A DNA stretch of 64,000 nt from a virus: the IMG/VR virus record IMGVR_UViG_3300033143_002031, positions 1 to 64,000 of that record; one strand, written 5' to 3'. This document shows positions 23,283 through 45,018 of this stretch, in pieces. The notes beneath the pieces were generated by a model that worked only from the letters and a program-made list of their open reading frames with translations, did no database searches and was not told where the DNA came from. Both the position numbers and the translations under genes were made by a program. The first letter of the stretch is position 1. Each line of letters begins with the position of its first letter.

Positions 23283-23732
23283 ATGGCTTTTCCGACCGGA
23301 TGGCCCCCGAGATTTTCCAGTGGTAAGCGGAACATCCGCTTCTACATTGCTGCGCTGGCAACGGCAAACTTCTCCGACCGCGCGTACCTGTTCGCCGATC
23401 AGGTCGGCGCGAACCCGTACACCCCCCTGCCGGTAGTTCGGCCCGGCGGGGACGTGTCGTCTCCGGACTATCCGGGGCCGACAGACATCGGCGCCAACCC
23501 AGCCGGAACGGGGCAGCACGGTGACGACCCGCACCCGATGATCTGGTCCGAGGGGATCATGATCATCAACAAGGGGGCGACGCCGATCTACTTCTCGTTT
23601 GATGGCGCCAACATCCAAGGCGAGGTCCCGCCGACCGCTGCCGGCGTCCCGGGGCAGATTTACATGGAGCGCTCTGAGGCTGGCATCGCCATCAACGGCG
23701 CCGGAAACAATTTCGTCGTCTATGCGTGGTAG
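23283..23732 (+). CDS. Probable head or tail decoration protein
   Basis: 149 residues, one base after the previous stop. Contains IMIINKGATPIYFSFDG and QIYMERSEAGIAI, patterns common in small beta-barrel virion proteins, with Gly/Pro-rich loops. Followed with overlap by the two-Nudix protein (GTG 23726). Structural role inferred. Confidence 0.55.
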   Translation: MAFPTGWPPRFSSGKRNIRFYIAALATANFSDRAYLFADQVGANPYTPLPVVRPGGDVSSPDYPGPTDIGANPAGTGQHGDDPHPMIWSEGIMIINKGATPIYFSFDGANIQGEVPPTAAGVPGQIYMERSEAGIAINGAGNNFVVYAW

Positions 23733-25339
23733 CTGTGGCTGAGAAGAAGCCATACACGCCCCCGCCTCTCGGGATGCTGGGCATGAAGCTGGGGCAGGTC
23801 GTTCAGGCCCTTGGCCTCGGCAAGGCCAAGGCGCAGATCGTCCAGAAGGGCGGCCCAAAGCTCAAGCCCCTGAAGGTGCACAAGCCGGACGTGAAGCATG
23901 CGAAGAGCAAGACGCATCACGCCGGACCGAAGAAGCCCGCAGGACCCCCGCCGATCGAGGTCTACCCCTACATCGACTCCGAGACCAAGAAAGAGGACTC
24001 CGGCCTCGTCACACTGAAGATGGCCAAGCACAAGATGAGCGTCGAGAAGTTTGCCGCTCGTCTGAAGGAACTCAGCCTTGGCCTCGCGGTCGGGCACCAG
24101 AAGATCATCACCGGGTACAAGGCACACGTCGCCATCGTGTCCCGGGCGGAAGCCAAGGCAGCCTCGAACGAGAACCCGGGCGCGCTCCTCGTGGGGAAGT
24201 CGTCCCCGCTCAAGCCGATAAAGAAGTGGATCTCATCGGGCTGCGTCGTCCTCGACTCTGCGGACGACCACGACCACGTCTACGTGACCAAGCCATCGAA
24301 CCACTACGGTCCGTGGTGCTTGCCGAAGGGTACGGTGGACAAGGGCGAGTCGCTCAAGCAGACAGCACTTCGAGAGGTGTGGGAGGAGACTGGCCTCCGG
24401 GTCAAGATCATGACGGGGAAGATGGCCTACCTCGGGAAGTTTGAGGGCGGCTACTCGTTCACCCACTACTTCCTGGCGGTGAAGGTCGGCGGGAGCCCGC
24501 ACCCGACGAGAGAGACCGAGCGTGTCGCACTGGTCACGTGGGACGAGGCCCTGCGGTTGTTCCGGTCGGGTGGGAACACGCGGGACCCCAAGGTGATCAG
24601 GCTGGCCCGTCGTGCGTTGAGTCTCCGCGAGGACGCAGTAGAGGAAGCGACCGAGGAGCTACAGATCACGGCCTACCCCTACTCCTACGGCGGAGAGAAG
24701 GACACGGCCCGGATCATCCTGAAGGTGCCGACGAGCCAGGGGACGGCAGAGCAGTTCGATGCCATCCTGAAGGAATTCTCGCTCCGAATGGACTCGAAGC
24801 ACCCGGCGATCGAGACGAAGGCTACGGCCCACGTGGCAGTCGTCGCCCGAGACGACCTCGCCCGAGCGGCCAAGGCTGGAATGAAGGTCCAGCGACTCGC
24901 TATGCAGGGCATCGGGAAAGCTCAGAAGAAGTGGACGTCGGCCGGTGGCGTCGTGCTCGACTCGCTCGAAGGCGAGCCCAGCGTCTACATCATTCGGCCC
25001 GCGTCTTGGCCGGGAGGGTGGGCCTACCCGAAGGGGCAGGTGGACGAGGGGGAGACCAAGCAGAAGGCGGCGGTTCGGGAGGTGTTCGAGGAGACCGGCC
25101 TGCGGGCCAAGATACTCCCCGGCAAGTCCTACATCGGCAAGGGCGAGGGCAGCTACGCCGTCGCTCATTTCTATCTGATGGTGAAGACCGGCGGCAGCGC
25201 GAAACGGACGGACGAGACAAAGGGCATTCGGTTGGTCACGCTGGACGAGGCGGAGCGGCTGTTCCAACAGGTCGGGAACACCCGCGACCTCAGAATCACA
25301 CGCAAGGCACAGAAGCTCGTCAGCCAGCGCGTGAAGTGA
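23726..25339 (+). CDS. Tandem Nudix hydrolase (two domains in one chain)
   Basis: 537 residues from GTG 23726, overlapping the previous stop. Two full Nudix boxes (G-x5-E-x7-REVxEETG-L) lie at residues 202-224 and 437-459, with all catalytic glutamates present. Each is preceded by a homologous domain of about 75 residues (VYPYIDSETKKEDSGLVTLK / AYPYSYGGEKDTARIILK), so a two-domain unit was duplicated in tandem. A Lys-rich, Pro-rich N-terminal tail (about 1-75) comes first. Nudix enzymes cut nucleoside diphosphates linked to another moiety (ADP-ribose, NADH, alarmones, RNA caps); the substrate is not evident. Its position among basic modular proteins suggests it may be carried in the virion. 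Confidence 0.85.
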   Translation: MVAVAEKKPYTPPPLGMLGMKLGQVVQALGLGKAKAQIVQKGGPKLKPLKVHKPDVKHAKSKTHHAGPKKPAGPPPIEVYPYIDSETKKEDSGLVTLKMAKHKMSVEKFAARLKELSLGLAVGHQKIITGYKAHVAIVSRAEAKAASNENPGALLVGKSSPLKPIKKWISSGCVVLDSADDHDHVYVTKPSNHYGPWCLPKGTVDKGESLKQTALREVWEETGLRVKIMTGKMAYLGKFEGGYSFTHYFLAVKVGGSPHPTRETERVALVTWDEALRLFRSGGNTRDPKVIRLARRALSLREDAVEEATEELQITAYPYSYGGEKDTARIILKVPTSQGTAEQFDAILKEFSLRMDSKHPAIETKATAHVAVVARDDLARAAKAGMKVQRLAMQGIGKAQKKWTSAGGVVLDSLEGEPSVYIIRPASWPGGWAYPKGQVDEGETKQKAAVREVFEETGLRAKILPGKSYIGKGEGSYAVAHFYLMVKTGGSAKRTDETKGIRLVTLDEAERLFQQVGNTRDLRITRKAQKLVSQRVK

Positions 25340-25712: not shown

Positions 25713-26042
25713 ATGAAGGCGCGTCTGAAGGCGTTCTGGAAGCGATCTAAGTGGGTAATCCTGAGCGTTGCCGGGGTTTTGGTCCTGGTCCTCGCCTTCC
25801 TGCTTCGAGGTCTCTTCGCTCGAAAGCTCCCTGAGCGTGACCCGCTGGACCCCAAGCCGCTGCCGCCCATAGATGAACGAGTCCACGAGCGCGTGAAGGC
25901 GGCCGAAGAGGAAGCGACCGTCGCGCGCATCGAGGCCAGGGTCCGGGCGAGCACCGACCGGGAGCAACTGGAGCGCATCTCTCAGGTCGAGGATGGGGCC
26001 GAGCGTCGGCGTCGCCTGGCGGCCATGCTACGGAGGCTCTGA
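25713..26042 (+). CDS. Small membrane protein with coiled-coil tail
   Basis: 109 residues. A basic N terminus (MKARLKAFWKRSK) precedes one transmembrane segment (VILSVAGVLVLVLAFLLRGLF, residues about 15-35) and then a proline-rich, charged helix to the end. This N-in, C-out layout with a coiled coil resembles an inner-membrane spanin, but a u-spanin candidate already exists at 29816. Its stop overlaps the next start. A TATGAT -10-like hexamer is at 25686. Confidence 0.6.
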   Translation: MKARLKAFWKRSKWVILSVAGVLVLVLAFLLRGLFARKLPERDPLDPKPLPPIDERVHERVKAAEEEATVARIEARVRASTDREQLERISQVEDGAERRRRLAAMLRRL

Positions 26043-28297
26043 TGCTCTCCGAGACGTTCGCGAGCACCTTCGGGGTGAAGGCCCAATGGACACGGGTTCA
26101 ACGCTCGGACCTGTCCAAGGACCCCGACCTCGCGAAGGAGCTTCTGCGTCTCATCGGCATCGCTTACAAGCCGCTCGGTGGCCACCTGAAGATCAAGTCG
26201 CCCAAGGACTTGACCGGCGCGATCACGTTCATCACGGCGGTAGACGTCGACAAGGACCCCCAGGCGGATGCAACGCTCTTGGGGCGGAAGGTCGGCAACG
26301 CGGTCAAACTCACAGCGCTGGGCCAGGATGGCAGCGCTCTGGCGAAGAAGGAAGCGCTGTCGTACTGGGGCGAGCTACTGCGCCGGGGCAAGGCATACGC
26401 CGAGGTCAGTGGACCCATCGCTCACATCATGCTCACGCGCCACAGCGTGCCTACGGTAGGCGGGCAGAAGGTCGTTGAGCGTGTCCTCGGGAAGAAGGTC
26501 GAGTGGGTGGGAGAGCGCCCGGACGGCAAGTACCCCGGGGTCAAGAACTGGTACCGGCGGAAGATCGGCGGCGGGACCCACATGAAGATTCTCGTGGGTA
26601 GGGTCGGCGGCGCGAAGTCGGGGCGAACGGAGGCTGTGATGGAGTACGTTACCGAGTTCAATCACCTGGCAGGCATCGGACCATCCCTCTGTGAGAAGGT
26701 GGCGGCCGACCCCATGCTGTCGACGCTGGCCAAGGCGTTCTCCGTCAAGGCGGTCAGGCCGGTGGACGTGAAGTTCATCCGCTACCGCAAGGTCGGCCAC
26801 GGCGTCGAGTTGGAGGACGTGGCCAGTCGGCTCGGGGACATCCTCACCTCGGTCGAGTCCAAGGAAGCCGACCCGAAAGCTCTCGTGGCCTTCCTGAAGA
26901 AGCACGGCGCGAAGCCGGCCCCGAAGGTCACGGAGGAGGTCGGGAAGTCGTGGGTGAACACCGTCGTCCCGAAGGTCATCGAGGCCGGCGGGAAGGTGTA
27001 TGTGGTCCGAAGTGTGTCGAAGATCGAGGCCGGCATGGGTATGTCGCGCACGATCGACTCACGCACCGGGAAGCAGTACTACACCCACTGGCTCAGGCTT
27101 CAGCCGGTGCGGGGCAAGAAGAAGCTGCCGGAGTACACCGCGAAGACTCGCACCATCGACGCCTACCTCGGAAGTGACGGGACGATCGGGATCAAGCAAG
27201 GGCGGTCGCACCGGGCCGGCGTCCTCGGCATGACGTTCAAGGCGGTCCACGGCTTCGACGAGTCCCTGGACGAGGCTGAGAAGTCGTCCCCGCTCATTGG
27301 CTGGCTCAACGAGAAGCTGAAGTCGAAGGGCATCCACGCCTGGCACGCCAAGGACATGAGCAACGGCATGTACCATGTGGCCTTCGGCAAACTCGGGTCC
27401 AAGTACGCCGAGGAGAAGTGGGTCGTCGATCCCAAACGTGGAGGGGTTCACCAGATCGAGACCTCGGCGGACAAGGCTTATGCTGCTGTCTTCTCCCTGA
27501 TCAAGAAGGCCAGGTCGGAGATCAAGAGGTCGCCGGACCTCCTGAAGGTGGAGTCGCTGGACGAGGCGGGCAAGACCTCCATCCACGTCACCACGATCAA
27601 GTCGAAGCACGGCGATAGCTACAAGTTCGACGTGACAGGAGAGTTTCGCGGAGACCCGATCCATGTGGAGTCGCTGGCTGTACACATGCACATTGATCGT
27701 ATCGGCTCGACCCTGGTGGGCCACATCCTGCCCGACACCAAATTCCACCGTGAGAGTGGCAAGTCGTTCCCCTACGGCTTCCGGATGAAGATTGAGAAGG
27801 CGGTCCTTGCTGAACTTCTGAAGCTGGCGAAGAAGCATGGCTCGGACATCGAGGAGTCCACCGCGTCGCTGGATGAGGGTAGTCAGGTCGGCAAGACGAT
27901 CCTTCACCAGATGGGCGGTTCGGGCGCTATCGTAGCCATGCTCGGGGGCTCCTACACCTACTTGTCCAAGGGCGTCGGTATCCGCTGGCCGAACAAGCAA
28001 CGCTCGAAGGGCAACTACGTGGAGATCGTGCTCACGCCTGCCGACGAGTACGACGTGACCTTCTACAACATGAAGGGCACGATGAAGTACTGGCACCCGG
28101 AGAACTCGAAGAAGGCGGTCAAGCGATACAAGGGCCTCATGTTCGATCAGCTTCGCGAGATCTTCTACAAGCAAACCGGCTGGACTCTGAGCAAGCCGAG
28201 GGTCCGTATGGCACCAGCGTCGCCGGAGCGTGAAGAGCGGATCAAGAAAGCCAAGGCGGAGCTACGGGCGAGTTGGAAAAAAGCGGGACTCCTCTGA
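26042..28297 (+). CDS. Modular basic protein with three S-L-D-E junctions (probable processed virion protein)
   Basis: 751 residues, ATG 26042 overlapping the previous stop. Three near-identical junctions split it: ESLDE|A at 407-412, ESLDE|A at 504-509, and ASLDE|G at 608-613. The modules between (about 97, 104 and 139 residues) are basic, mixed alpha/beta and unrelated to each other by eye. L-x-E followed by a small residue is the T4 gp21 prohead-protease consensus, so the chain may be cut during head maturation. The protein at 32393 has the same architecture. No enzymatic motif is recognised in any module. Confidence 0.75.
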   Translation: MLSETFASTFGVKAQWTRVQRSDLSKDPDLAKELLRLIGIAYKPLGGHLKIKSPKDLTGAITFITAVDVDKDPQADATLLGRKVGNAVKLTALGQDGSALAKKEALSYWGELLRRGKAYAEVSGPIAHIMLTRHSVPTVGGQKVVERVLGKKVEWVGERPDGKYPGVKNWYRRKIGGGTHMKILVGRVGGAKSGRTEAVMEYVTEFNHLAGIGPSLCEKVAADPMLSTLAKAFSVKAVRPVDVKFIRYRKVGHGVELEDVASRLGDILTSVESKEADPKALVAFLKKHGAKPAPKVTEEVGKSWVNTVVPKVIEAGGKVYVVRSVSKIEAGMGMSRTIDSRTGKQYYTHWLRLQPVRGKKKLPEYTAKTRTIDAYLGSDGTIGIKQGRSHRAGVLGMTFKAVHGFDESLDEAEKSSPLIGWLNEKLKSKGIHAWHAKDMSNGMYHVAFGKLGSKYAEEKWVVDPKRGGVHQIETSADKAYAAVFSLIKKARSEIKRSPDLLKVESLDEAGKTSIHVTTIKSKHGDSYKFDVTGEFRGDPIHVESLAVHMHIDRIGSTLVGHILPDTKFHRESGKSFPYGFRMKIEKAVLAELLKLAKKHGSDIEESTASLDEGSQVGKTILHQMGGSGAIVAMLGGSYTYLSKGVGIRWPNKQRSKGNYVEIVLTPADEYDVTFYNMKGTMKYWHPENSKKAVKRYKGLMFDQLREIFYKQTGWTLSKPRVRMAPASPEREERIKKAKAELRASWKKAGLL

Positions 28298-29815: not shown

Positions 29816-30370
29816 ATGAGAAAGCTCGTAGTCATGGTGGCCCTGCTCTCCTTCGGCTGTGGCGCAGCCCAGACCCCCGAGGTGCGACCATTGGTCGCCG
29901 ATGATAGGCGCCCCGAGGCTCGTGAGATGGTCCAGGACGCCCGGGACGAGTCGCTGCCCGAGGGCACGCCCCAGCACCTCCCCGAGTCCTACGTCATGCC
30001 TGTGGAGGCCGGAGAGTGCATCCCCGAGGACGGGCGCCGCATACCACCCTCGGACGAGGAGTTGGTCCTACTCGGACCGTGCCCCGAGGAGTCCGGCATA
30101 TTCGTCTCCGAGGCGCGAGCGAACCGCGACGCCATCTATCGCATCCGCTACCGCGAGATGAGGGACACCTACCGGGCGGATCGGCAGGTGTGGTCGGCGC
30201 ACCGGGAACTCTACGAGGCCCAGGTCGCGGCTGACCGGGAGGAGATTGCTCGGCTCCAGCCCACGTTCTGGGAGCAGCACGACGGGGAGATCCTGGCGAC
30301 GCTCGGTGTCATCGTCGGGGCAGCCCTCACGGTGGCCATCACATTCGCTGTGAACCAGGCATCGGAGTGA
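29816..30370 (+). CDS. Candidate unimolecular spanin (lipoprotein with C-terminal TM)
   Basis: 184 residues. A signal sequence with lipobox (LLSFGC, lipidated Cys at residue 15) is followed by a Pro/Glu-rich periplasmic stretch, a charged helix (about 105-155) and a C-terminal transmembrane segment (TLGVIVGAALTVAITFAV, about 160-178). Lipoylated N terminus in the outer membrane plus a C-terminal inner-membrane anchor is the layout of T1 gp11-type u-spanins, which fuse the two membranes at lysis. It sits 30 kb from the holin and amidase genes. Diderm host implied. A copy of the 15-bp palindrome lies inside the gene. Confidence 0.6.
   Translation: MRKLVVMVALLSFGCGAAQTPEVRPLVADDRRPEAREMVQDARDESLPEGTPQHLPESYVMPVEAGECIPEDGRRIPPSDEELVLLGPCPEESGIFVSEARANRDAIYRIRYREMRDTYRADRQVWSAHRELYEAQVAADREEIARLQPTFWEQHDGEILATLGVIVGAALTVAITFAVNQASE
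29884..29898. repeat. 15-bp palindrome GCGACCATTGGTCGC, copy 2
   Basis: Same 15-mer as at 2306, here inside the spanin-like coding sequence and encoding part of the variable periplasmic stretch. Its conservation within a coding region argues for a DNA-level function. Confidence 0.7.
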
Positions 30371-30372
30371 TC

Positions 30373-32388
30373 ATGGCGGCGGTCTTCACAGAGGCACAGC
30401 GCGCCGGCCTGCACGCTCTCAGCGAGGGCACCATCGACGATCAGTGGATCAAGGGTATCCGTGCCGGGTGGAAACTCCTGGTGAAGCAGACCAAGAAGTT
30501 CAAGGGTCGCCGCTCCACCGCCCCGGCCATGGAGCAGAGCTACCTCGACGCTGCCGCTGACGGGTCCACGGCGGCCCTCCAGAACGTCCAGCGGTACATC
30601 GGACGCCTCCGTGACGACCTGCTCTTGAACAAGGGCTTCTGGGACCTCCCCTCTGATGCTCAGGGCAAGAAAGAACTGAGCATCATTCGTCGCTACAAGA
30701 CCAAGGTCATCGACGAACTCGACGCCGCAGAAGAGGCGATCTCAGACGGCCTGAGCTACGCACGCACCGTCAAGGAAGCAGCCTCGAAGGATGGGGGCAT
30801 CGGTGGGCGCGAAGGCTACATGCACCAGGAGACCTACGCTTCTCAGGATCGGTTCAACTTCACGCTGAATGGGTTCGGGGAGCGTCTCGACGGCATCATG
30901 ACCATGGCGGACAAGGCAATCTCCGGTCGCCTGTTCCGCCATCTGTCCAAGGTGCTCGCCACGTCGTTCAAGCATGTCCTCGACTACCCGACCAAGGGCA
31001 GCGAGAAGTGGCGCAGCAAGAAGCGGTACGTGAAGAAGCAGGTTCCCCTCGACTGGGGCGAGCACGAGCCCCCGGTGGTCCACCTCGGCAAGGCCACGGT
31101 CATCTTCCAGGACATGCCAGGCGAAGGGGCGGGCGGCACCATCTCTCCTCGGAAGGTCGGTTCCGAGACGACGGTGAAGAAGGGCGGCGAGGTCGTCACC
31201 ACCAAAGAGGTTACGTCGCGGACCAAGTACGGCGGCGGGTACATGCACCCGAGGGACCGGAAGGAGTTCGTCGATGGCCTGAAGGAGGCCCAGGCGAGGC
31301 TGCGAGCGAAGCGGCTCGGAAAGCTCTTCCACGGTCACTTCCTCATCGAGCCCAAGGAGCGTGCAGGGACGAACCAGTACGGGGCTCATCTCGGGGTCGG
31401 TGGGAGGTACTACCGCAAGGGCGACGCGATCCACCTCTACGGGGGCAGCAAAGGTCCGCACTCCGTCGCGGTGGTCGCCATTCACGAGATCGGGCACCGC
31501 TACTACTACAAGAACCTGACCTCCCAAGATCGGCACAACTTCGACAAGTGGTTCAAGGATGTGCCGGCGGTGTCGAGCTACGGCGGCATCAACCCTGCCG
31601 AGGACTTTGCCGAGGTCTTTACCCACTACGTGCTCGGGCAAGACATGACCAAGGACCAGATGCAACGGTTCCGGCAGTTCATGACCGGGCACAGGCCGAG
31701 GACGGAAGCAATGGAAGAGAGCGCGGCCACGAAATCTCAGGAGTGCATGTTCTGTGATGAGCCGGCGGTGTCGAGCCTCATCTGGGAAGACGGCCAGAAC
31801 TACGTGGCCGTGTGCCGGGCTCACATGGCCGAGGGCAGGATACATATCAGCCTCGAAGGAGGGTCGGTCTGCGACGTCAAGAACGTCGAGAACGGGCCGA
31901 TCGCCTACCGGGAGAGCCGATGCTACCCGGCGACTCATCCGCAGGCACGCATGGAGGCGGCCCTAGAGCCCGCTCTGGCGTTCGTGGAGGAGGAAGAGGC
32001 TGGAACCCACTTCGGCCTCCAGGCGAGCCCTGAGAGGCTCCAGAGCGCCTTCCAGGAGGCCCCAGCGCAGCCCCCGCCCCGGGCACCTATCGGCAGGAGG
32101 TCCACGCCACGCGGAGCGGTCATCCCCTCCAGGCGAGGCGGCGACGAGCCGATGGGCTTCACCAAGGGTGCGATCACGAAATACCACGGCCAGCGGGCCA
32201 AGCGCGTGAGCCAGCGGACGCCGAGGACGACGCAGCTACCGAGCGGAGTCAAGCAGGAGATTCCGGACTCCCTGATGCAGATGCTCGGGACCGACTGGAA
32301 GAACATGCGCGCCACGCGCGTCCACGACAACCGCATGACCATCAACATTGACGGTGTTCGGTTCTCGGTCTACACGAGGAGAGGGTAA
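30373..32388 (+). CDS. Large protein with HEIGH metallopeptidase motif and zinc knuckle
   Basis: 671 residues from ATG 30373 (a GTG two codons earlier overlaps the previous stop). The N terminus FTEAQRAGLHALSE|G has a possible targeting and cleavage site. Helical region to about 300. HEIGH at 371-375 with downstream acidic EDFAE at 410-414 matches the HExxH...E zinc ligands of gluzincin-type metallopeptidases. A CxxC...CxxH cluster (458/461 and 481/484) may bind a second zinc. The C terminus is proline- and arginine-rich. A virion-borne protease is plausible; the substrate is unknown. Confidence 0.75.
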   Translation: MAAVFTEAQRAGLHALSEGTIDDQWIKGIRAGWKLLVKQTKKFKGRRSTAPAMEQSYLDAAADGSTAALQNVQRYIGRLRDDLLLNKGFWDLPSDAQGKKELSIIRRYKTKVIDELDAAEEAISDGLSYARTVKEAASKDGGIGGREGYMHQETYASQDRFNFTLNGFGERLDGIMTMADKAISGRLFRHLSKVLATSFKHVLDYPTKGSEKWRSKKRYVKKQVPLDWGEHEPPVVHLGKATVIFQDMPGEGAGGTISPRKVGSETTVKKGGEVVTTKEVTSRTKYGGGYMHPRDRKEFVDGLKEAQARLRAKRLGKLFHGHFLIEPKERAGTNQYGAHLGVGGRYYRKGDAIHLYGGSKGPHSVAVVAIHEIGHRYYYKNLTSQDRHNFDKWFKDVPAVSSYGGINPAEDFAEVFTHYVLGQDMTKDQMQRFRQFMTGHRPRTEAMEESAATKSQECMFCDEPAVSSLIWEDGQNYVAVCRAHMAEGRIHISLEGGSVCDVKNVENGPIAYRESRCYPATHPQARMEAALEPALAFVEEEEAGTHFGLQASPERLQSAFQEAPAQPPPRAPIGRRSTPRGAVIPSRRGGDEPMGFTKGAITKYHGQRAKRVSQRTPRTTQLPSGVKQEIPDSLMQMLGTDWKNMRATRVHDNRMTINIDGVRFSVYTRRG

Positions 32389-32392
32389 GACA

Positions 32393-35300
32393 ATGACAGA
32401 CCACCATAGCCATCTTCGCCGCCTTGTTGAGTCTCGGTCGGATGATACGCACCTGGACCCCATGGCTCATTTCCAGACGCTCTCTGGCATCCGTCCGACG
32501 CTTCCGGGCCTGACCGAAGAGGACGAGAGCGTCTTCGACAAGCCCCAGTGGGTCAAGGACTTCAAGGCCGGCTGGGAGGCATCGAAGAAGGCGAAGAAGG
32601 AGATTCCGCCGAAGAAGGCGTACAACATGGCCCGGGTCAGCAAGAAGCACGGCACCTACTGGATCGACGGCTATGCGGCGTGGGTTGATCACAAGCGTGG
32701 AGCCCACGCCCAGCCAGGTGTCCGCGACGCGAAGAAGATGGGTCTCACCGAGGACGTCGAGTTCACCGAGAGAACGGTCCTCGGAGACGTCGCGACCTTC
32801 CTGAAGCGCAAGGACGTGGACAATCTCTCGGCAGCGGACGAGAAGCACGTGGCCATGATGCTGGGGCACATGGGCAAGGGCGAGCTACAGCAGATCATCC
32901 GCGCGTGGGATCGGCCCCTGCACCACCGCAACCCGGAGAAGGTGTTCATCGTCGACACGGCCAAGGACGTGCTCTCCCACAAGATCCACTCCGAGGACGT
33001 GGACGACCTGGACGAGGGCGATCCCAAGATGCTGTCGAAGCTCGGGAAGCCGGTGAAGGTCGTCAAGGCTGGCGTCATGAAGCTCTACGTCTACCGCTCC
33101 AAGAGCCCGTACAGCAAGTACGCGGTGGTCGTGCAGGGCAAGGGAGGCAAGAAGGAATTGCCCGGGGCGAGCGGGAACACGCCGGAAGAGGCGATCGAGA
33201 AGACCAAGGCGATGCTGAAGAAGGCTGGTGGCAAAGTCGAGGACGTGGACGATCTCAGCGAACGCGCGCCACGCTACGCGGCGGGCGGGAAGTCGCTCGG
33301 CTACTTCCTCTCAGGTTTGGATCTCGTCATCGAGAACCAGAAGAAGTACGGCAGGCCGACCTACGTTGGTAGCGCCGTGCGCAAACTCACCCACGATCAG
33401 GCTCAGTGGGTCGTCAAGAGAGTACCCACTGCCGGATGGATGGAAGGCCCGAACCCCACCGAGGGGAAGAAGGCTGTCTATCTGGACGCGCACAGCCGCA
33501 AGATGTGGGACTTCCGAAATGAACTGGAGACCCAAGCCTACGAGGAGGACGTGGATGACCTCGGCGAGGCGGTCCCGCTCAACGTGGCGGCAAAGGAGGC
33601 CAACGCTATCGCCTCTGGTGCCGCGAAGCTGGCTCGCATGCTCGGTCAAGGACGTGCAGCGCAGATGAGCAAGAGCGACTACACCAAGGCTCGAAAGCTC
33701 GTCGGCGAGATGCTATTCACGGCTGCCAGGGCGATGGATGCTCTGAGCATGGACGTGAAGCCGATCCTTCACGCCTCGAAGCAAGCCAAGGGCGGGATGT
33801 CCGAGGCTAGCATCGTGCGAGGGGCTTCCCCGATGGCGGACCTTCCCGGCGGTGGCGGCGCAGGGATGTACGCTTCCGACCTCCAGGGGTTCGCACGCGA
33901 GTTGGGGCGGCATCTCGGACAGGCCGGAGCAGATTACCAGTCCAAGGCTGCGAACCGGGCTCGTGGTGCGCTCGGGTCGGTCTTGGCGGCCCTCGGCGTC
34001 ATCATGAAGAACATCGGCCTGGAAGCTGCTTCCATCGGCGTCCGCAAGTCGGCTCGGGGGATCTTCAAGAAGTACGGGAAGATGGCAGGGCAGTCCAATT
34101 GGCTCGAAGCCATGGAAGACGAGGACGATCTGGACGAGGCCGACAAGCTCGGCAAGCCGGACGTCATCACCGGCATGAAGTTCGGCACTCGCTACAAGTA
34201 CAACCACGGGATCTTCATCGACCACGTGGAGGACAAGCGCGAGTACCACGTCTCTCAGGCTGGGCGACCCTCGAAGAAGCTGGGGTACGCCAAGACGCTG
34301 GCCAAGGCCAAGGAGATTGCCCTGCGGAAGGGCGACTTCATGGAGAGCGCCGACGATCTGGACGAGCGCCAGAAGGTCGAGCCCGGCATGGGCGGCGAGA
34401 CCGTGCCCGGCTCGATCAAGATCCACCCCGGGAAGTGGGGTGACTTCGGCAAGCGTGGGCCGAAGACCGTGACGTCCAAGCCCGTGATGACCCGGCAGGG
34501 CTCCTTCAAGTTGAGCAGCCAAGCCCTGAAGATGTTCGCCAAGATGGGCGACACGCCGGACCAGGCCCTCTTCAAGGGTCAGCAGAAGATCATGAACGCG
34601 ATCCCGCGCGAAAAACTCCCCACGGTCATCGGGGAGACGGACATCGCGGGCGCTCAGGACGAACTAGCTCGCAACCCGAAGGGCGCTATCCAGAAGTTCA
34701 TGCGGAACATCCACAAGGTGTCTCCGAAGGCTGGCAAGATGCTCCGCGCTGTGCCGGAGAACGCCGCGCTGTACTTCTACATCTACGCGATGAACGTGAG
34801 CGGCCGGGACATGGCCGACGAGATCCTGAAGCGGTACCTCACGACTCACCAGGCGTTCAAGCCGGTGAAGAAGGAGGACGTGGACGACCTGGACGAGGCC
34901 ATGGGCCTCGTGAAGGGTGACAAGGTTCGAGTCACCAAGGGGAAGATGAAGGGGCTGAAGGGTGTAGTCACCTATGTCGGCTCAGGGCCGAAAGGCGACA
35001 AGGTATCTGTCCGCATCGACCACCCTGTGCATCGCATGATGGGACCTGCTCTTGTGGACCCGAAGATTCTTGTGAAGGAGGACGTGGACGACCTGGACGA
35101 GGCCAAAGAGCGGTTCGAGTTGGTCTACGGGTCCGGTGGGACCGGCGGCCCGTACTGGACCGAGTGGGCGGCCATGGAGCAGGCTGAAAAGCTCATGAAG
35201 GGCAGCCGCAGCGAGACGTGGATCGCGGTTGTACCCGCCCGGCAAACTACGGACCTCGCTAAGGCCAAGCCCACGGCCTACCTGCACCGGAAGAAGAAGG

Positions 35301-35464
35301 GTTGGACCAAGGGCGGCGGCATGACCCTGAAGCAGATCTTCAAGGGCCACTTCCGCGAGGGGGTCGACCCTGTGGCAGACGGCAACGTGCTGATCACTGA
35401 CGACGTGCGACGGTTCCGCGTTCTCGTGGGCATGGACCCGCTGCCGCGACGCCTGGAGGGTTGA
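32393..35464 (+). CDS. Probable polyprotein: eight basic modules joined by seven acidic L-x-E linkers
   Basis: 1023 residues from ATG 32393. Linkers of the form EDVDDLDE|A occur at residues 201-208, 283-290, 385-392, 575-582, 651-658, 828-835 and 896-903, the fourth and fifth as EDEDDLDE and ESADDLDE. The residue before the bar is always Glu in L-x-E, the residue after is Ala, Gly or Arg. Modules are 68-208 residues and basic. Module 7 (836-903) contains a KOW-type stretch (GDKVRVTKGKMKGLKGVV). Module 4 resembles the end of the protein at 44362 (GLEAAS / GIEAAS). T4 gp21-type prohead proteases cut after L/I-x-E, so the chain could yield eight internal head proteins. The linkers are near-identical in DNA too. 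Confidence 0.8.
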   Translation: MTDHHSHLRRLVESRSDDTHLDPMAHFQTLSGIRPTLPGLTEEDESVFDKPQWVKDFKAGWEASKKAKKEIPPKKAYNMARVSKKHGTYWIDGYAAWVDHKRGAHAQPGVRDAKKMGLTEDVEFTERTVLGDVATFLKRKDVDNLSAADEKHVAMMLGHMGKGELQQIIRAWDRPLHHRNPEKVFIVDTAKDVLSHKIHSEDVDDLDEGDPKMLSKLGKPVKVVKAGVMKLYVYRSKSPYSKYAVVVQGKGGKKELPGASGNTPEEAIEKTKAMLKKAGGKVEDVDDLSERAPRYAAGGKSLGYFLSGLDLVIENQKKYGRPTYVGSAVRKLTHDQAQWVVKRVPTAGWMEGPNPTEGKKAVYLDAHSRKMWDFRNELETQAYEEDVDDLGEAVPLNVAAKEANAIASGAAKLARMLGQGRAAQMSKSDYTKARKLVGEMLFTAARAMDALSMDVKPILHASKQAKGGMSEASIVRGASPMADLPGGGGAGMYASDLQGFARELGRHLGQAGADYQSKAANRARGALGSVLAALGVIMKNIGLEAASIGVRKSARGIFKKYGKMAGQSNWLEAMEDEDDLDEADKLGKPDVITGMKFGTRYKYNHGIFIDHVEDKREYHVSQAGRPSKKLGYAKTLAKAKEIALRKGDFMESADDLDERQKVEPGMGGETVPGSIKIHPGKWGDFGKRGPKTVTSKPVMTRQGSFKLSSQALKMFAKMGDTPDQALFKGQQKIMNAIPREKLPTVIGETDIAGAQDELARNPKGAIQKFMRNIHKVSPKAGKMLRAVPENAALYFYIYAMNVSGRDMADEILKRYLTTHQAFKPVKKEDVDDLDEAMGLVKGDKVRVTKGKMKGLKGVVTYVGSGPKGDKVSVRIDHPVHRMMGPALVDPKILVKEDVDDLDEAKERFELVYGSGGTGGPYWTEWAAMEQAEKLMKGSRSETWIAVVPARQTTDLAKAKPTAYLHRKKKGWTKGGGMTLKQIFKGHFREGVDPVADGNVLITDDVRRFRVLVGMDPLPRRLEG

Positions 35465-39455: not shown

Positions 39456-39653
39456 ATGTTGCAGTCGAGGGATGAAGTTCGCGCCCTGTTCGGCGGGGCG
39501 CAGATGCAGACCAAGGACTCGCGGCGGAGCCAGGTCGCCGCTGCGAGCTACCTGTACCAGTTGGCGGAGCAAGTCCGTGATGGCTCGGTGCAGGACTTCG
39601 ATGTCCGGTGGAACGCCGCAGGGGACGTTGAGGCTAGCGTGACGCCCCGGTGA
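39456..39653 (+). CDS. Small protein of unknown function
   Basis: 65 residues; ATG 39456 chosen over GTG 39447 because GGGGTGGAG then lies correctly upstream. Mixed charge, no motif. A TATACT hexamer at 39427 and a small hairpin (CCCCACCTTTGGGG) precede it. Confidence 0.5.
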   Translation: MLQSRDEVRALFGGAQMQTKDSRRSQVAAASYLYQLAEQVRDGSVQDFDVRWNAAGDVEASVTPR

Positions 39654-39679
39654 CAAACTCGGGCGTCCGGAGGAGACAC

Positions 39680-40996
39680 ATGGCGAAACAACCGAAGAAG
39701 AAGCCTGTCGATGACGCTGGTGACCCTCTGTACGACAGCCTGCCAGAGGTTCCGCACAAGACGTCACCGGCCCAGGCAGCCAAGAACGTCCCGGCCAAGG
39801 TGCCGGACCAGCGTCAGAGGTTCGAGGGGGCCTCGATCGAGGGAGACGACCCTCTGAAGGACACTGGTGGGGGCGTGAGCATCCCGGACTACCAGGATGC
39901 CTACCAGCCCCCGAGCGCGCCCAAGACCGTGGAGGACGACTTCCAGGGCGGCGAGACGCGCTCTGCGATCCGTATGGCGTTCATCGGTGCCGGGCAGGGC
40001 GGGGGACGCATCGCCCAGGCGTTCTACGACATGGGCTACCGGCGTGTGATGGTCTGCAACACGACCTCGCAGGACATGGAGTCGCTCACCATCCCGGCGA
40101 AGCTGGTCATCGGCAACGATCGGGGCGGCGCCGGCAAGGACCCCGAGGAGGGAAAACTCGCAGCCCAGGAGTCCTACGAAGACCTCATGGACGCCATGAT
40201 GCGAACCTTCGGCGAGGGCGTGGAGCACGTCTACATCTGCGTGGGTGGTGGGGGAGGCTCAGGCACGGGCTCGTGGCCGGTGCTGCTCGACGCAGCGCGG
40301 GAGTACGCCAAGAGCACGAACATCGAGAAGCCCTTTGGCAAGCACCTCGGCGTGATCATGAGCCTGCCCAAGAGGAGCGAGGGCGCCAGGGTCCAGCGCA
40401 ACTCGCACATTGCGATCACCGACGCGCTGTCGAAGCTCAACCGAGGGCTCATCTCCTCCCTGGTCATCGTGGACAACGCCAAGATCCACGAGCTTTACCC
40501 CGGTCTGCCAGTGAAGCAGTTCTGGACCGTGGCCAACCGCAACTTCGCGGCTGTGCTTCACACGTTCAACCTGCTTGCGGCCAAGGACTCGGAGTACAAC
40601 ACCTTCGACCGGGCCGACCTCCGAAGCGTCGTCCAGAACGGCCTCATGGTCTTCGGCATGACGCGAGTGGAGCGCTGGCAGGGCAAGGATGACATCTCGA
40701 AAGCTGTCCGTCAGAACCTCAAGGGTACGCTCCTCGCGGACGGCTTCGACCTGTCCAAGGCGGATATGGCCGGTGCCATCGTCCTGGCCCATGATGAGAT
40801 CCTGTCCGAGATACCCATGGAGAACATCGACTACGCCTTCAGCAGTCTTGGTCGTGCGTTGGGCAACGAGGGCATCACCCTCCACAACGGCATCTACGAG
40901 AGCAAGGGCCGCGTCTCCATGCGGGTCTTCACGATCATCTCTGGCCTCGAAGCCCCTCAAGAGCGGATCGACGAGCTAGAGCAAGCGGCCCGCTAA
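39680..40996 (+). CDS. FtsZ/tubulin-like GTPase
   Basis: 438 residues from ATG 39680; an upstream in-frame start at 39650 lacks a better ribosome site. After a disordered N-terminal 100 residues comes FIGAGQGGGRIAQAF (about 103-115), a CNTTSQDMESL nucleotide loop, and the tubulin signature GGGGGSGTGS (about 188-198). A FDLSKADMAGAIV segment near residue 356 sits where the T7 loop would lie. These are the GTP-binding and polymer-contact parts of the tubulin/FtsZ superfamily. Jumbo-phage PhuZ filaments centre the phage nucleus; whether this one does so cannot be told from the sequence. Confidence 0.8.
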   Translation: MAKQPKKKPVDDAGDPLYDSLPEVPHKTSPAQAAKNVPAKVPDQRQRFEGASIEGDDPLKDTGGGVSIPDYQDAYQPPSAPKTVEDDFQGGETRSAIRMAFIGAGQGGGRIAQAFYDMGYRRVMVCNTTSQDMESLTIPAKLVIGNDRGGAGKDPEEGKLAAQESYEDLMDAMMRTFGEGVEHVYICVGGGGGSGTGSWPVLLDAAREYAKSTNIEKPFGKHLGVIMSLPKRSEGARVQRNSHIAITDALSKLNRGLISSLVIVDNAKIHELYPGLPVKQFWTVANRNFAAVLHTFNLLAAKDSEYNTFDRADLRSVVQNGLMVFGMTRVERWQGKDDISKAVRQNLKGTLLADGFDLSKADMAGAIVLAHDEILSEIPMENIDYAFSSLGRALGNEGITLHNGIYESKGRVSMRVFTIISGLEAPQERIDELEQAAR

Positions 40997-41050: not shown

Positions 41051-41233
41051 GTGGCTGGCCAACAGGAGTGGGAGCCGGAAGCGACCCCGCCTCGACCGCA
41101 GCCCTTGTGGAAGGTGTACGTGAACGGCCGACTGAAGGCCCTATACGGAATCGAACGGCGGGCTAGCGGAATGAGGCAGGCGAAGCTGTATGCGTGGGTC
41201 GGGGAGCAGCCCCGACGACGCCGCGCGTCCTGA
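41051..41233 (+). CDS. Small basic protein
   Basis: 60 residues from GTG 41051, ending in RRRRAS. Central WKVYVNGRLKALYG could be a beta hairpin. No ribosome site stands out. Possibly real because it fills the gap before the next gene and has a compact, protein-like composition. Confidence 0.4.
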   Translation: MAGQQEWEPEATPPRPQPLWKVYVNGRLKALYGIERRASGMRQAKLYAWVGEQPRRRRAS

Positions 41234-41274
41234 CCGCTGGTCTCGCAAACTCGATCCATGATATAGAGGATGAC

Positions 41275-43128
41275 ATGGCGAACGCTCCGACGATCAACAC
41301 AGCATCGTGGCGGCTCCCGAAGCGGGCTCACTCGGCCCCAGAGGCGACCTTCACGGATGATATGTACCGAGCGAAGGGCCTCCCTGTGGACCCGGAGCGC
41401 CTGCCAACGACAGGCGGTTCCGGCCGGTCTGTCGTGGACACCACCGAGTGGCGTCTCCCGACGAAGGAGGAGCGCGAAGCCAAGGCACTCGAAGAGGCGA
41501 AGGAGCGCCACCACGCCAAGAACTTCGAGGTCGAACTCGACGACTCCGAGTTTGACGACCTCGACGACGAGTACAACGATGACGACTACGCCGGCCTCGA
41601 AGAGCCTGAGCCGAAGAAGAGCAAGGCCGAGAGCCGAATGCAGGAGATCAAGACCTGCAAGGGCTCCTACCTGAAGCGAAGTGCCGGTCTGAAGGTCAAG
41701 GGCCAGCAAGGGCGTGGACGAGGTAGAGGCGTTGGACGAGGCGAAGGTCCGATCGGCAGACAGGACGCAGGACCGCCGCGAGCCGCCGACGATGACGCAG
41801 TGGACGAGGTGACCAGCCTGCGCCACATCCAAAGACAACTCGCCGGCCTCGAAGAGTCCAGGGGCCTGGAGTTTGCCATCGGGCAGCCCTACCGGCGTCT
41901 GCCCGGACCTCTGACCGAGATGGATCGCACCGGCTTCAGCGGCCAGACGCCTGAGAACAAGGCGTACAACGTCATCATGAGCGCTGGCATGGTCTCGAAC
42001 ACGGCTCACGCGAAGAAGGAGATCGAGGCGCTGGCCAAGAAGCTACGGACGACGATGCCGCACCTGATCAGTGCGGCCTTCGAGCGCCACCTTCAAGCGT
42101 TGAAGGGGGGCGCCCGTCCTGTGACCGGGACGCAGAACGACATGAAGCGCGAGATGGCGCACATGGCGAAGGCGGCCAAGGCGCTCGGGGCCTACGAGCT
42201 ATTGGTCAAGGCGGCGAAGAAGTACTCCCCCAAGAGGGAGTCCGAGGTCCCCCGCGAGCAGCAAGCTCTCGCCGGCATGACCGAGCGAGCCCCGCTGCCG
42301 CACCCGATGACCGACACGCGCCCCGTAGGCCCACGGCCAGCCCACGGCATCCTGGACGACGGGACTGACTCGGGCGAGTCCTACGTGGACAAGATCCTCG
42401 CCGAGAGCCGCTGGTTCTTCGACGACGGTCCAGGAGCGACGCGCCCTTTTGACGAGGCGCCCGGCGGCAGAGCCGGGCCGTGGCGGGGCTCCGACGACGA
42501 GCCGGCCAAGACTCCGATCGTTCGCAAGGGCAAGGTCAAGGGGACGGTAGGACAGGCCAAGGGCGGCGACAAGGGCGAGCCCGAGGAAGAGCCCGAGGAC
42601 GACGATGCTGGTGACGGGGAGAAGAAGCAGGTTCCCCCGAAGGGCAAGGGCAAGAGCAAGGGCAAGCCGAAAGCTCCCCCCGAGGAAGAGCCCGACGAAG
42701 ACGAGGAGCAGGACGAGGGGGTGCTCGGTGAGCGCGACTCGGGCGCTGCTCATGGCCTGAAGTCCCTCGGCCACCACCTGAAGGCAGCCGGACACCGAGC
42801 GGGCCATGGGTCTATGGCCCAGAGTGCGAAGGCCGGGCTCCACCACCACCTCCAGAAGTTCGCCAAGAAGCACGGCATCAAAGCATTCGGTCACGAGCCG
42901 GAGAAGGCCGAGCCGAAGGCCAAGGCCAAGCCGAAGAAGTCAGCGATCAAGGCCAAGGCCAAGCCGAAGACCAAGCCGAAGCCCCTGAAGCTGCACACCA
43001 AGGCCCTGAAGAAGTCTCGGGCTGCCAAGGCCAAGGCTGCCAAGGCCGGCACGGCGCCGAAGCTCAAGAAGATGAAGCGCAAGTTGCGTGAAATTCTCGA
43101 TCTCGGTCCTCCCAACATTCTGCTGTAA
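41275..43128 (+). CDS. Histone-H1-like basic protein with acidic N-terminal half
   Basis: 617 residues from ATG 41275. Residues 50-110 are strongly acidic (DDSEFDDLDDEYNDDDYAG). An RG-rich patch (GRGRGRGVGRGEG) follows, then a helical domain (about 225-330). The last 70 residues are Lys/Ala/Pro repeats (AKPKKSAIKAKAKPKTKPKP, KKSRAAKAKAAKAG) like eukaryotic or bacterial H1 tails. It should bind DNA, perhaps in the capsid. An L-x-E site (VLGERD) lies in the second half. Confidence 0.7.
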   Translation: MANAPTINTASWRLPKRAHSAPEATFTDDMYRAKGLPVDPERLPTTGGSGRSVVDTTEWRLPTKEEREAKALEEAKERHHAKNFEVELDDSEFDDLDDEYNDDDYAGLEEPEPKKSKAESRMQEIKTCKGSYLKRSAGLKVKGQQGRGRGRGVGRGEGPIGRQDAGPPRAADDDAVDEVTSLRHIQRQLAGLEESRGLEFAIGQPYRRLPGPLTEMDRTGFSGQTPENKAYNVIMSAGMVSNTAHAKKEIEALAKKLRTTMPHLISAAFERHLQALKGGARPVTGTQNDMKREMAHMAKAAKALGAYELLVKAAKKYSPKRESEVPREQQALAGMTERAPLPHPMTDTRPVGPRPAHGILDDGTDSGESYVDKILAESRWFFDDGPGATRPFDEAPGGRAGPWRGSDDEPAKTPIVRKGKVKGTVGQAKGGDKGEPEEEPEDDDAGDGEKKQVPPKGKGKSKGKPKAPPEEEPDEDEEQDEGVLGERDSGAAHGLKSLGHHLKAAGHRAGHGSMAQSAKAGLHHHLQKFAKKHGIKAFGHEPEKAEPKAKAKPKKSAIKAKAKPKTKPKPLKLHTKALKKSRAAKAKAAKAGTAPKLKKMKRKLREILDLGPPNILL

Positions 43129-43936: not shown

Positions 43937-44320
43937 ATGAGCCAGATAGAGTTCACATTCGAGCACGATGGGGACTTCTACGTCGTGTACGGAACGGTCG
44001 GCTGGGAGGGATTCGTGGAGCCTCGGATCGTTCCCGACCCCGCCTGCCCGAAGTGCCATGGTGAGGGCGTGGTCAAGGTCGGCTACGAGCCCCCGGACGA
44101 GTTCAACGCCACGGGCGAGGGCATCTACGACGGCTGCGACTGCGAGAAGGAGGTTCCCGGCTCTGGGCGCCCCGGCTACCCGACCTTCGAGCCCGACGAG
44201 ATCGAGGGGCCGGACGGCGAGCGGATGACGGAGGAGCAGGTCGTGGAGTTTGTCGCCGAGGTCGGGGCCAAGGCGCTCGCTACGGAGGCAGACGAGGCTG
44301 CCTGTGCTTGTGCGGAGTGA
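43937..44320 (+). CDS. Small acidic protein with CxxCxGxG zinc motif
   Basis: 127 residues from ATG 43937, start preceded by GAGGGGACC. CPKCHGEG and CDCEKE flank a 25-residue loop and probably bind zinc. It is acidic at the C terminus and likely in one operon with the two genes before it. Confidence 0.65.
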   Translation: MSQIEFTFEHDGDFYVVYGTVGWEGFVEPRIVPDPACPKCHGEGVVKVGYEPPDEFNATGEGIYDGCDCEKEVPGSGRPGYPTFEPDEIEGPDGERMTEEQVVEFVAEVGAKALATEADEAACACAE

Positions 44321-44346
44321 CCTGTTATTGTAGGCTCGATCGAGCC
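44308..44346 (+). promoter_or_regulatory. Promoter and palindrome upstream of 44362
   Basis: TTGTGC, 17-bp spacer, TAGGCT (44331-44336). The -10 overlaps a perfect 14-bp palindrome GGCTCGATCGAGCC (44333-44346), which could be an operator or a 5' stem. TTGGAGGAG follows as ribosome site. Confidence 0.55.
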
Positions 44347-44361
44347 TTGGAGGAGAGCAAT

Positions 44362-45018
44362 ATGAACGCGGCCAGGGAACTACACCTCTTTGTTGACAAC
44401 GATGCGGACCTGCATCGGCAGCAGTACACGCCCATCCTCAAGAACCTCATGACCAAGCACGCCCAGGGTCGCTACAACCGGGCGCTGGCCGTGAAGCTCT
44501 TCATGTACCTCGTGGATGCCGGGGCGAAGAAGTACGCCAAGATGCACGGCTCCCCGGACCAGCCCTGGCACAAGATGTTCTCCAAGCACGATCGCACGAC
44601 GGTCGCCCAGGCTCTCCGCGACGACTTCGAGGAGGAGGCGAAGCTGGGCAACTACGACGACATGCTCCCGAAGAAGTACCAGGGCAAGGTCTCCGGCAAG
44701 ACGATCGGCGAGGGCGCCGAGGCTCCCGAGGGCGACGGTGGCCCGATCTTCGACGAGAGCACCCGGAAAGCTCTTTCCGAGGCGGCCGGCTCGAAGAAGG
44801 GGTACGCCTCCCTCCCCGGTCTCCAACGAACGGCGCAGTACGTCCAAGACACCGTGTATCTCAGCAAGAAGATGCACGAGGCGTTCAAGGACAACGACGA
44901 GGCCAAGGCCAAGTCTCACATGCGGGGCATGCTCGCAGCCCTCGAACTCGGTCTGAAGGGCATGGGAATCGAAGCTGCTTCCGATCACGTCAAGCAAGCC
45001 AAGAACCTAGTCAAGTAG
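44362..45018 (+). CDS. Helical basic protein, related to a module of the 1023-residue polyprotein
   Basis: 218 residues from ATG 44362. Helical throughout. The last 70 residues (LQRTAQYVQDTVYL..MLAALELGLKGMGIEAAS) resemble residues about 515-560 of the protein at 32393. ALSE|A near residue 133 is a possible L-x-E cleavage site. A separate promoter precedes it. Likely another internal virion protein. Confidence 0.65.
   Translation: MNAARELHLFVDNDADLHRQQYTPILKNLMTKHAQGRYNRALAVKLFMYLVDAGAKKYAKMHGSPDQPWHKMFSKHDRTTVAQALRDDFEEEAKLGNYDDMLPKKYQGKVSGKTIGEGAEAPEGDGGPIFDESTRKALSEAAGSKKGYASLPGLQRTAQYVQDTVYLSKKMHEAFKDNDEAKAKSHMRGMLAALELGLKGMGIEAASDHVKQAKNLVK

Follow-up and report, generated by a model that had tools for sequence, protein, structure and literature searches.

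What does a 1023-residue chain do in a tailed phage when seven acidic seams, each ending in L-x-E, divide it along its length, and would its pieces be released as separate proteins? This question is raised by gene g039 of an uncultured T4-like phage represented in IMG/VR by a record of 184,744 bp; the window analysed here is the 64,000-nucleotide stretch formed by bases 1-64000 of that record. Translation of the open reading frame at 32393-35464 (+ strand) confirmed a product of 1023 aa, with D-D-L-x-E ends at Glu208, 290, 392, 582, 658, 835, and 903, and a previous sequence-only reading had been correct in both the reading frame and all seven Glu positions.

Organization of the g039 polyprotein

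The DDLxE pattern was found seven times in g039 and in none of the other called genes of the window. In 20,000 shufflings of g039 it averaged 0.025 occurrences and never exceeded 2, vs the 7 observed. The linkers had been described as almost identical EDVDDLDE↓A sequences (the arrow marks the predicted cut). Their number held and their uniformity did not: EDVDDLDE was exact in only three seams (208, 835, and 903), the rest being EDVDDLSE, EDVDDLGE, EDEDDLDE, and ESADDLDE, and the P1′ residues were, in order along the chain, G, R, A, A, R, A, and A, with Ala in 4/7. Ahead of the eight modules stands a separate N-terminal segment of 42 residues that closes with GLTE↓E; the modules are 68-190 aa long, with core pI values of 9.2-10.4. 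The earlier description of eight basic modules stands for the count and for the cores; with the acidic tail kept, the modules at residues 43-208 and 291-392 are neutral (pI 6.9-7.0). The features of g039 are listed below.

32393..35464, + strand: polyprotein g039, 1023 aa
32393..32518, + strand: N-terminal segment, aa 1-42, ending GLTE↓E; candidate capsid-targeting segment
32519..33016, + strand: module 1, aa 43-208, seam EDVDDLDE↓G
33017..33262, + strand: module 2, aa 209-290, seam EDVDDLSE↓R
33263..33568, + strand: module 3, aa 291-392, seam EDVDDLGE↓A
33569..34138, + strand: module 4, aa 393-582, seam EDEDDLDE↓A; possible additional site within the module, GGMSE↓A at 471
34139..34366, + strand: module 5, aa 583-658, seam ESADDLDE↓R
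34367..34897, + strand: module 6, aa 659-835, seam EDVDDLDE↓A
34898..35101, + strand: module 7, aa 836-903, KOW-like domain, seam EDVDDLDE↓A
35102..35464, + strand: module 8, aa 904-1023, carrying the C-terminal motif FRVLVGMDPLPRRLE
32993..33016, + strand: seam 1 DNA, 24 bases shared with seams 6 and 7 and one seam of the related phage G026
33239..33262, + strand: seam 2 DNA
33545..33568, + strand: seam 3 DNA
34115..34138, + strand: seam 4 DNA
34343..34366, + strand: seam 5 DNA
34874..34897, + strand: seam 6 DNA
35078..35101, + strand: seam 7 DNA

At the DNA level, the 26-base seam sequence had 5 matches in the window (≤3 mismatches) vs 0 expected. Apart from the 24 bases that are identical in seams 1, 6, and 7 and one G026 seam, the g039 seams varied in amino acids as well as in synonymous codons.

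A Pfam scan of g039 recognised only one of the eight modules, the KOW-like module 7 (PF23284, E 2.4e-5, below Pfam's curated cut-off), and gave no peptidase domain and no named polyvalent domain. Module 2 was predicted to be a folded alpha/beta domain (pLDDT 74) with a disordered seam, and the predicted fold had no significant PDB match; weak PDB matches included several dsRNA-binding domains, which are taken as a lead only. An AlphaFold prediction of the whole chain from its single sequence was uninformative (pLDDT 39). Searches with whole g039 resulted in no matches in the phage collection or IMG/VR and in nothing significant in the PDB.

Conserved ends and exchanged modules in related phages

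The region was present in two other contigs only, and the comparison covers these three. In both relatives a polyprotein occupies the same place, after the g038 orthologue: it has 1022 aa in IMGVR_UViG_3300027917_000078 (G026) and ~690 aa in IMGVR_UViG_3300017989_000073 (G002). The first 42 residues were 61-74% identical among the three polyproteins, and this segment ended in GLTE↓E, GLAE↓M, and SLEE↓K in the three phages. A C-terminal motif, FxVLxGxxPLPRRLE, was also common to the three chains, with those of G026 and G002 running on beyond it. Between the conserved ends, module 2 alone had a recognisable homologue, in G026 (61%), and the other modules differed. With relatives sharing the same two ends around different proteins, the chain therefore resembles an interchangeable set of head-cargo proteins. 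The G002 chain ends in a module that recurred at 44% identity within a different carrier protein of G026, and neither the G026 nor the G002 polyprotein had a match in the phage collection.

Among the 22 predicted seams of the three chains, P3 was L in 20 and M in 2 and P1 was E in all 22, both of which follow from the choice of sites. Position P1′ was A in 10 and S in 4, and the positions upstream were mostly acidic and variable. A match to the linker pattern in L052 was rejected as a chance occurrence of EDVDDFDE in an unrelated protein. The window also encodes a TubZ/FtsZ-like tubulin at 39650-40996 (PF00091, E 4.8e-12) with a TubZ C-terminal domain. The tubulin gene of the relative G018 (L109:9378-12041) has 888 codons, with ~330 extra internal residues that are possibly an intein. 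In the distant TubZ-bearing relatives L126-L130, no acidic-seam polyprotein was seen beside the TubZ gene.

The prohead protease and its specificity

The T4 protease gp21 cleaves after L/I-x-E (PMC9026906). The sequence-only reading had named the lack of such a protease in the genome as a finding that would speak against it; the gene is present at G000:154,121-154,567, and its product matched Peptidase_S77 (PF03420, E 2e-20, 69.7 bits vs a Pfam gathering cut-off of 27) and PHROG 207, 'head maturation protease' (E 7e-47). A T4-type major head protein, for which no relative was found in bacterial genomes, a portal, and a contractile tail sheath are also encoded. The head cluster lies at ~146-157 kb of the 184.7-kb contig vs 32-35 kb for g039, which is therefore not beside the portal and protease genes. 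A terminase-like ORF of 1058 aa (L006:6566-9742; G000:146566-149742) is interrupted by an intein-like stretch, and an endonuclease-like reading frame lies inside that stretch (L006:7515-8369).

In the 31 major head proteins compared, all from this lineage, L-x-E↓(E/D) was found near residue 65 in all, one of them with Met at P3. In an unbiased comparison of 1,884 ORFs for excess [LIM]xE↓[AGS], the top ranks went mostly to genes adjacent to the portal and protease, the same ones across several relatives. Such enrichment would be expected if these encode core proteins cut at several sites and the protease has that specificity. Two genes between portal and protease (L006:11959-13774) carry many such sites in several relatives and likely encode multi-cut core proteins; in the phage studied here, the genes in this interval have 7-8 L-x-E sites. 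By simple count of LxE↓AGS, g039 was outside the top 22 ORFs, with G or R at P1′ in 3/7 of its sites.

Neighbouring carriers of the same design

The repetitive polyprotein is not an isolated case: g039 is one of several such carriers in the genome, and the sequence-only reading had overlooked its similarly built neighbours. Further carriers in the window are the following.

26042..28297, + strand: second polyprotein g031, 751 aa
28845..29306, + strand: g034, whose similarity to G002 stops exactly at LPKVHLSE↓ / LPKVELDE↓
30367..32388, + strand: g038, with a 20-residue N-terminal segment ending ALSE↓G and a HEIGH zincin-like domain
41194..43128, + strand: g046, with QRQLAGLEE↓S and QQALAGMTE↓R
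44308..45018, + strand: g050, conserved up to KALSE↓A

The seams of g031 are ESLDE↓A (411), ESLDE↓A (508), and ASLDE↓G (612), plus FNHLAGIGPSLCE↓K, and its middle modules are absent from the G002 orthologue. The last module of g031 matched PHROG 9437 and corresponds to a stand-alone protein in Vibrio phage KVP40 and Tunturiibacter phage Tunturi_5. The start of Tunturi_5 gp289, MTIAQTILQQLG, lined up, in both phages here, with the sequence immediately beyond the predicted cleavage point (SLDE↓GSQVGKTILHQMG and ALDE↓SVARTILKQMG); the annotated start of the KVP40 homologue is further upstream. The N-terminal module of g031 matched a stand-alone protein of Tenacibaculum phage pT24. A match of a g031 module in Paride was not counted, as it falls outside the annotated ORF translated.

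Among the remaining carriers, g034, g046, and g050 retain similarity as far as an L-x-E and diverge beyond it. The G002 orthologue of g034 has an extra module, and in g046 the relatives have extra winged-helix-like modules between L-x-E sites. In g038, a second conserved site (MEE↓S / LEE↓G) precedes a Cys-rich module. In g050, two phages share the site KALSE↓A, and G002 has SLHE↓ followed by unrelated sequence, the module being exchanged at the site.

An F..LAGI.P.LxE↓ element was observed in g031 (window 26657-26695) and at both ends of g039, with a shorter LAG[LM]xE↓ form in g046; this element is a candidate targeting motif. The middle domain of g038 also occurs in a 485-kb uncultured phage (LR745208.1). 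Inside the carrier cluster, g037 (window 29816-30370) is lipoprotein-like, with a C-terminal membrane segment, and is conserved in relatives. At 23726-25339 of the window, a unit whose last part is a NUDIX domain (PF00293, two stretches) is duplicated in tandem; the G002 orthologue has it in single copy. Fusions of Nudix and head proteins have been reported in phages (PMC9503650), so the product of this gene could be head cargo.

Conservation and breakpoints at L-x-E sites

Considering all window genes with matches, 11/22 similarity breakpoints were located ≤5 aa from an [LIM]xE site vs 5.3 expected (p = 0.006); the excess at a 10-residue window was not significant (p = 0.146). In the carriers, the Glu of L-x-E↓(A/G/S/R) was conserved in 26/32 cases (81%) vs 91/189 (48%) for other Glu residues (p = 0.0005), figures that support the reading and do not prove it, because the list of carrier genes was picked after inspecting their sites. 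In the other window genes, the conservation of site Glu and other Glu residues was no different (23/34 vs 493/770). The cleavage of g039 at its seams proposed by the sequence-only reading is well supported as a prediction by the conservation of the sites, by the breakpoints at them, and by the stand-alone homologue that starts at a cut.

Proposed role of g039 and alternative explanations

We propose, with a probability of about 0.7, that g039 is a polyprotein of about eight head-cargo proteins that would be cut by the gp21-like protease in the prohead, comparable to several T4 internal proteins in series. Binding to the prohead core is probably the task of the N-terminal ~42 residues, which would thereby bring the entire chain into the prohead, where the protease would cleave after L-x-E within the acidic disordered seams. 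The freed small basic proteins may then stay with the DNA and would probably be injected, either to counter host defences or to aid takeover. Location in the head and injection are assigned to the modules by analogy with T4 biology, and we infer likewise the cutting in vivo, the anti-defence role, and the role of the seams in recombination. Since targeting and cutting would require just the ends and the seams, modules could be swapped freely, and among close relatives the module content does differ.

A chain with many L-x-E sites could instead be a sacrificial protein of the prohead core, cut only to be destroyed for DNA filling and leaving fragments without a later role. Such behaviour would agree with the sites in the genes between portal and protease, similar in this to T4 core proteins, and with the long propeptides of SPN3US head proteins, which are cleared by multiple cuts (PMC10052503). 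We regard it as unlikely for g039, whose gene is far from the portal-protease-head cluster and whose fragments of 68-190 aa are domain-like, one of them KOW-like and another (module 2) predicted to be folded. Moreover, a scaffold would be expected to have a conserved sequence, whereas the modules are exchanged between phages, and the end modules of g031 occur elsewhere as stand-alone genes.

It is quite improbable that the chain is an effector of the polyvalent type, packaged whole and processed on delivery by a metallopeptidase such as the HEIGH domain of the adjacent g038. Peptidases of the zincin-like kind found in this immediate neighbour do occur in polyvalent proteins, which have been likened to polyproteins (PMC5512222). 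However, g039 itself is without a peptidase domain, its seams fit both the specificity of gp21 and the phage's own head-protein site, and the same sites are present in proteins that have no acidic seams, as well as within g038. Very doubtful, finally, is the explanation that the multidomain protein stays intact, with the seams serving only as flexible acidic tethers and L-x-E deriving from duplication of one linker. The identity of seams 1, 6, and 7 over 24 bases does mean that some duplication occurred, but across relatives the only constant seam positions are P3 (L/M) and P1 (E), synonymous codons differ between seams, and L-x-E also marks module edges in unrelated neighbouring proteins.

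Returning to the head-cargo polyprotein, the DNA identity among three seams and one seam of a relative suggests that the seams may also act as recombination joints. An extension of this proposal, to which we give even odds, is a general delivery platform in which several virion carriers would bear interchangeable effector cassettes bounded by prohead-protease sites, each seam being both cut site and DNA joint. With both functions in the same seam, one recombination event would load a new injected effector with no new targeting signal. If the proposal is true, this is a tailed phage with a true polyprotein strategy, in which the capsid-maturation protease is the processing enzyme. The seams would also mark the borders of injected effectors, allowing small, likely anti-defence phage proteins to be mined from sequence only, and the gain of new internal proteins by T4-like phages would become testable. 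The arrangement further suggests a design in which several cargo proteins are loaded into a phage head from one gene.

Comparison with known systems

The T4 core and scaffold proteins gp22, gp67, and gp68 resemble g039 in that gp21 cuts them at L/I-x-E during maturation. Prohead core genes adjoin those of portal and protease, and their products are degraded. The g039 gene, by contrast, is at a different location, and its product shows module exchange among relatives. SPN3US gp53 and gp54 also undergo several prohead-protease cuts per head protein (PMC10052503); there, an N-terminal propeptide is largely cleared, whereas the cuts predicted for g039 are spread over the full length of the chain and would part modules of domain size from one another.

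The sequence-only reading knew of no phage polyprotein of this form, a statement to be qualified by the polyvalent proteins, a known multidomain polyprotein-like class (PMC5512222). These have many exchangeable domains per polypeptide, for which packaging, delivery, and proteolytic release have been proposed; they differ in their embedded metallopeptidase, g039 having prohead-protease sites and no peptidase. Searches of open-access journal papers gave no instance of a phage polyprotein that a prohead protease processes.

The T4 internal proteins are small, basic, diverse, and injected (PMC3012670, PMC9026906, PMC12373910). They have been described as diverse defence proteins with only the targeting sequence in common (PMC3012670), and each of Ip1-Ip3 inhibits a distinct type IV restriction enzyme (PMC12373910). 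The searches run here gave no sequence homology of g039 to them. The setting of IPI, IPII, and IPIII (and Alt) is the same, with a T4-type head, a gp21-type protease, and L-x-E cut sites. The internal proteins are, moreover, small, basic, fast-evolving proteins behind a conserved N-terminal segment ending in L-x-E, as predicted for g039, whose cleavage is likewise a prediction. In T4, on the other hand, each is encoded by one gene with its own propeptide of 10-19 residues, whereas g039 would place about eight behind one segment; having seven internal seams rather than one protein per gene, g039 is therefore not classed as an internal protein.
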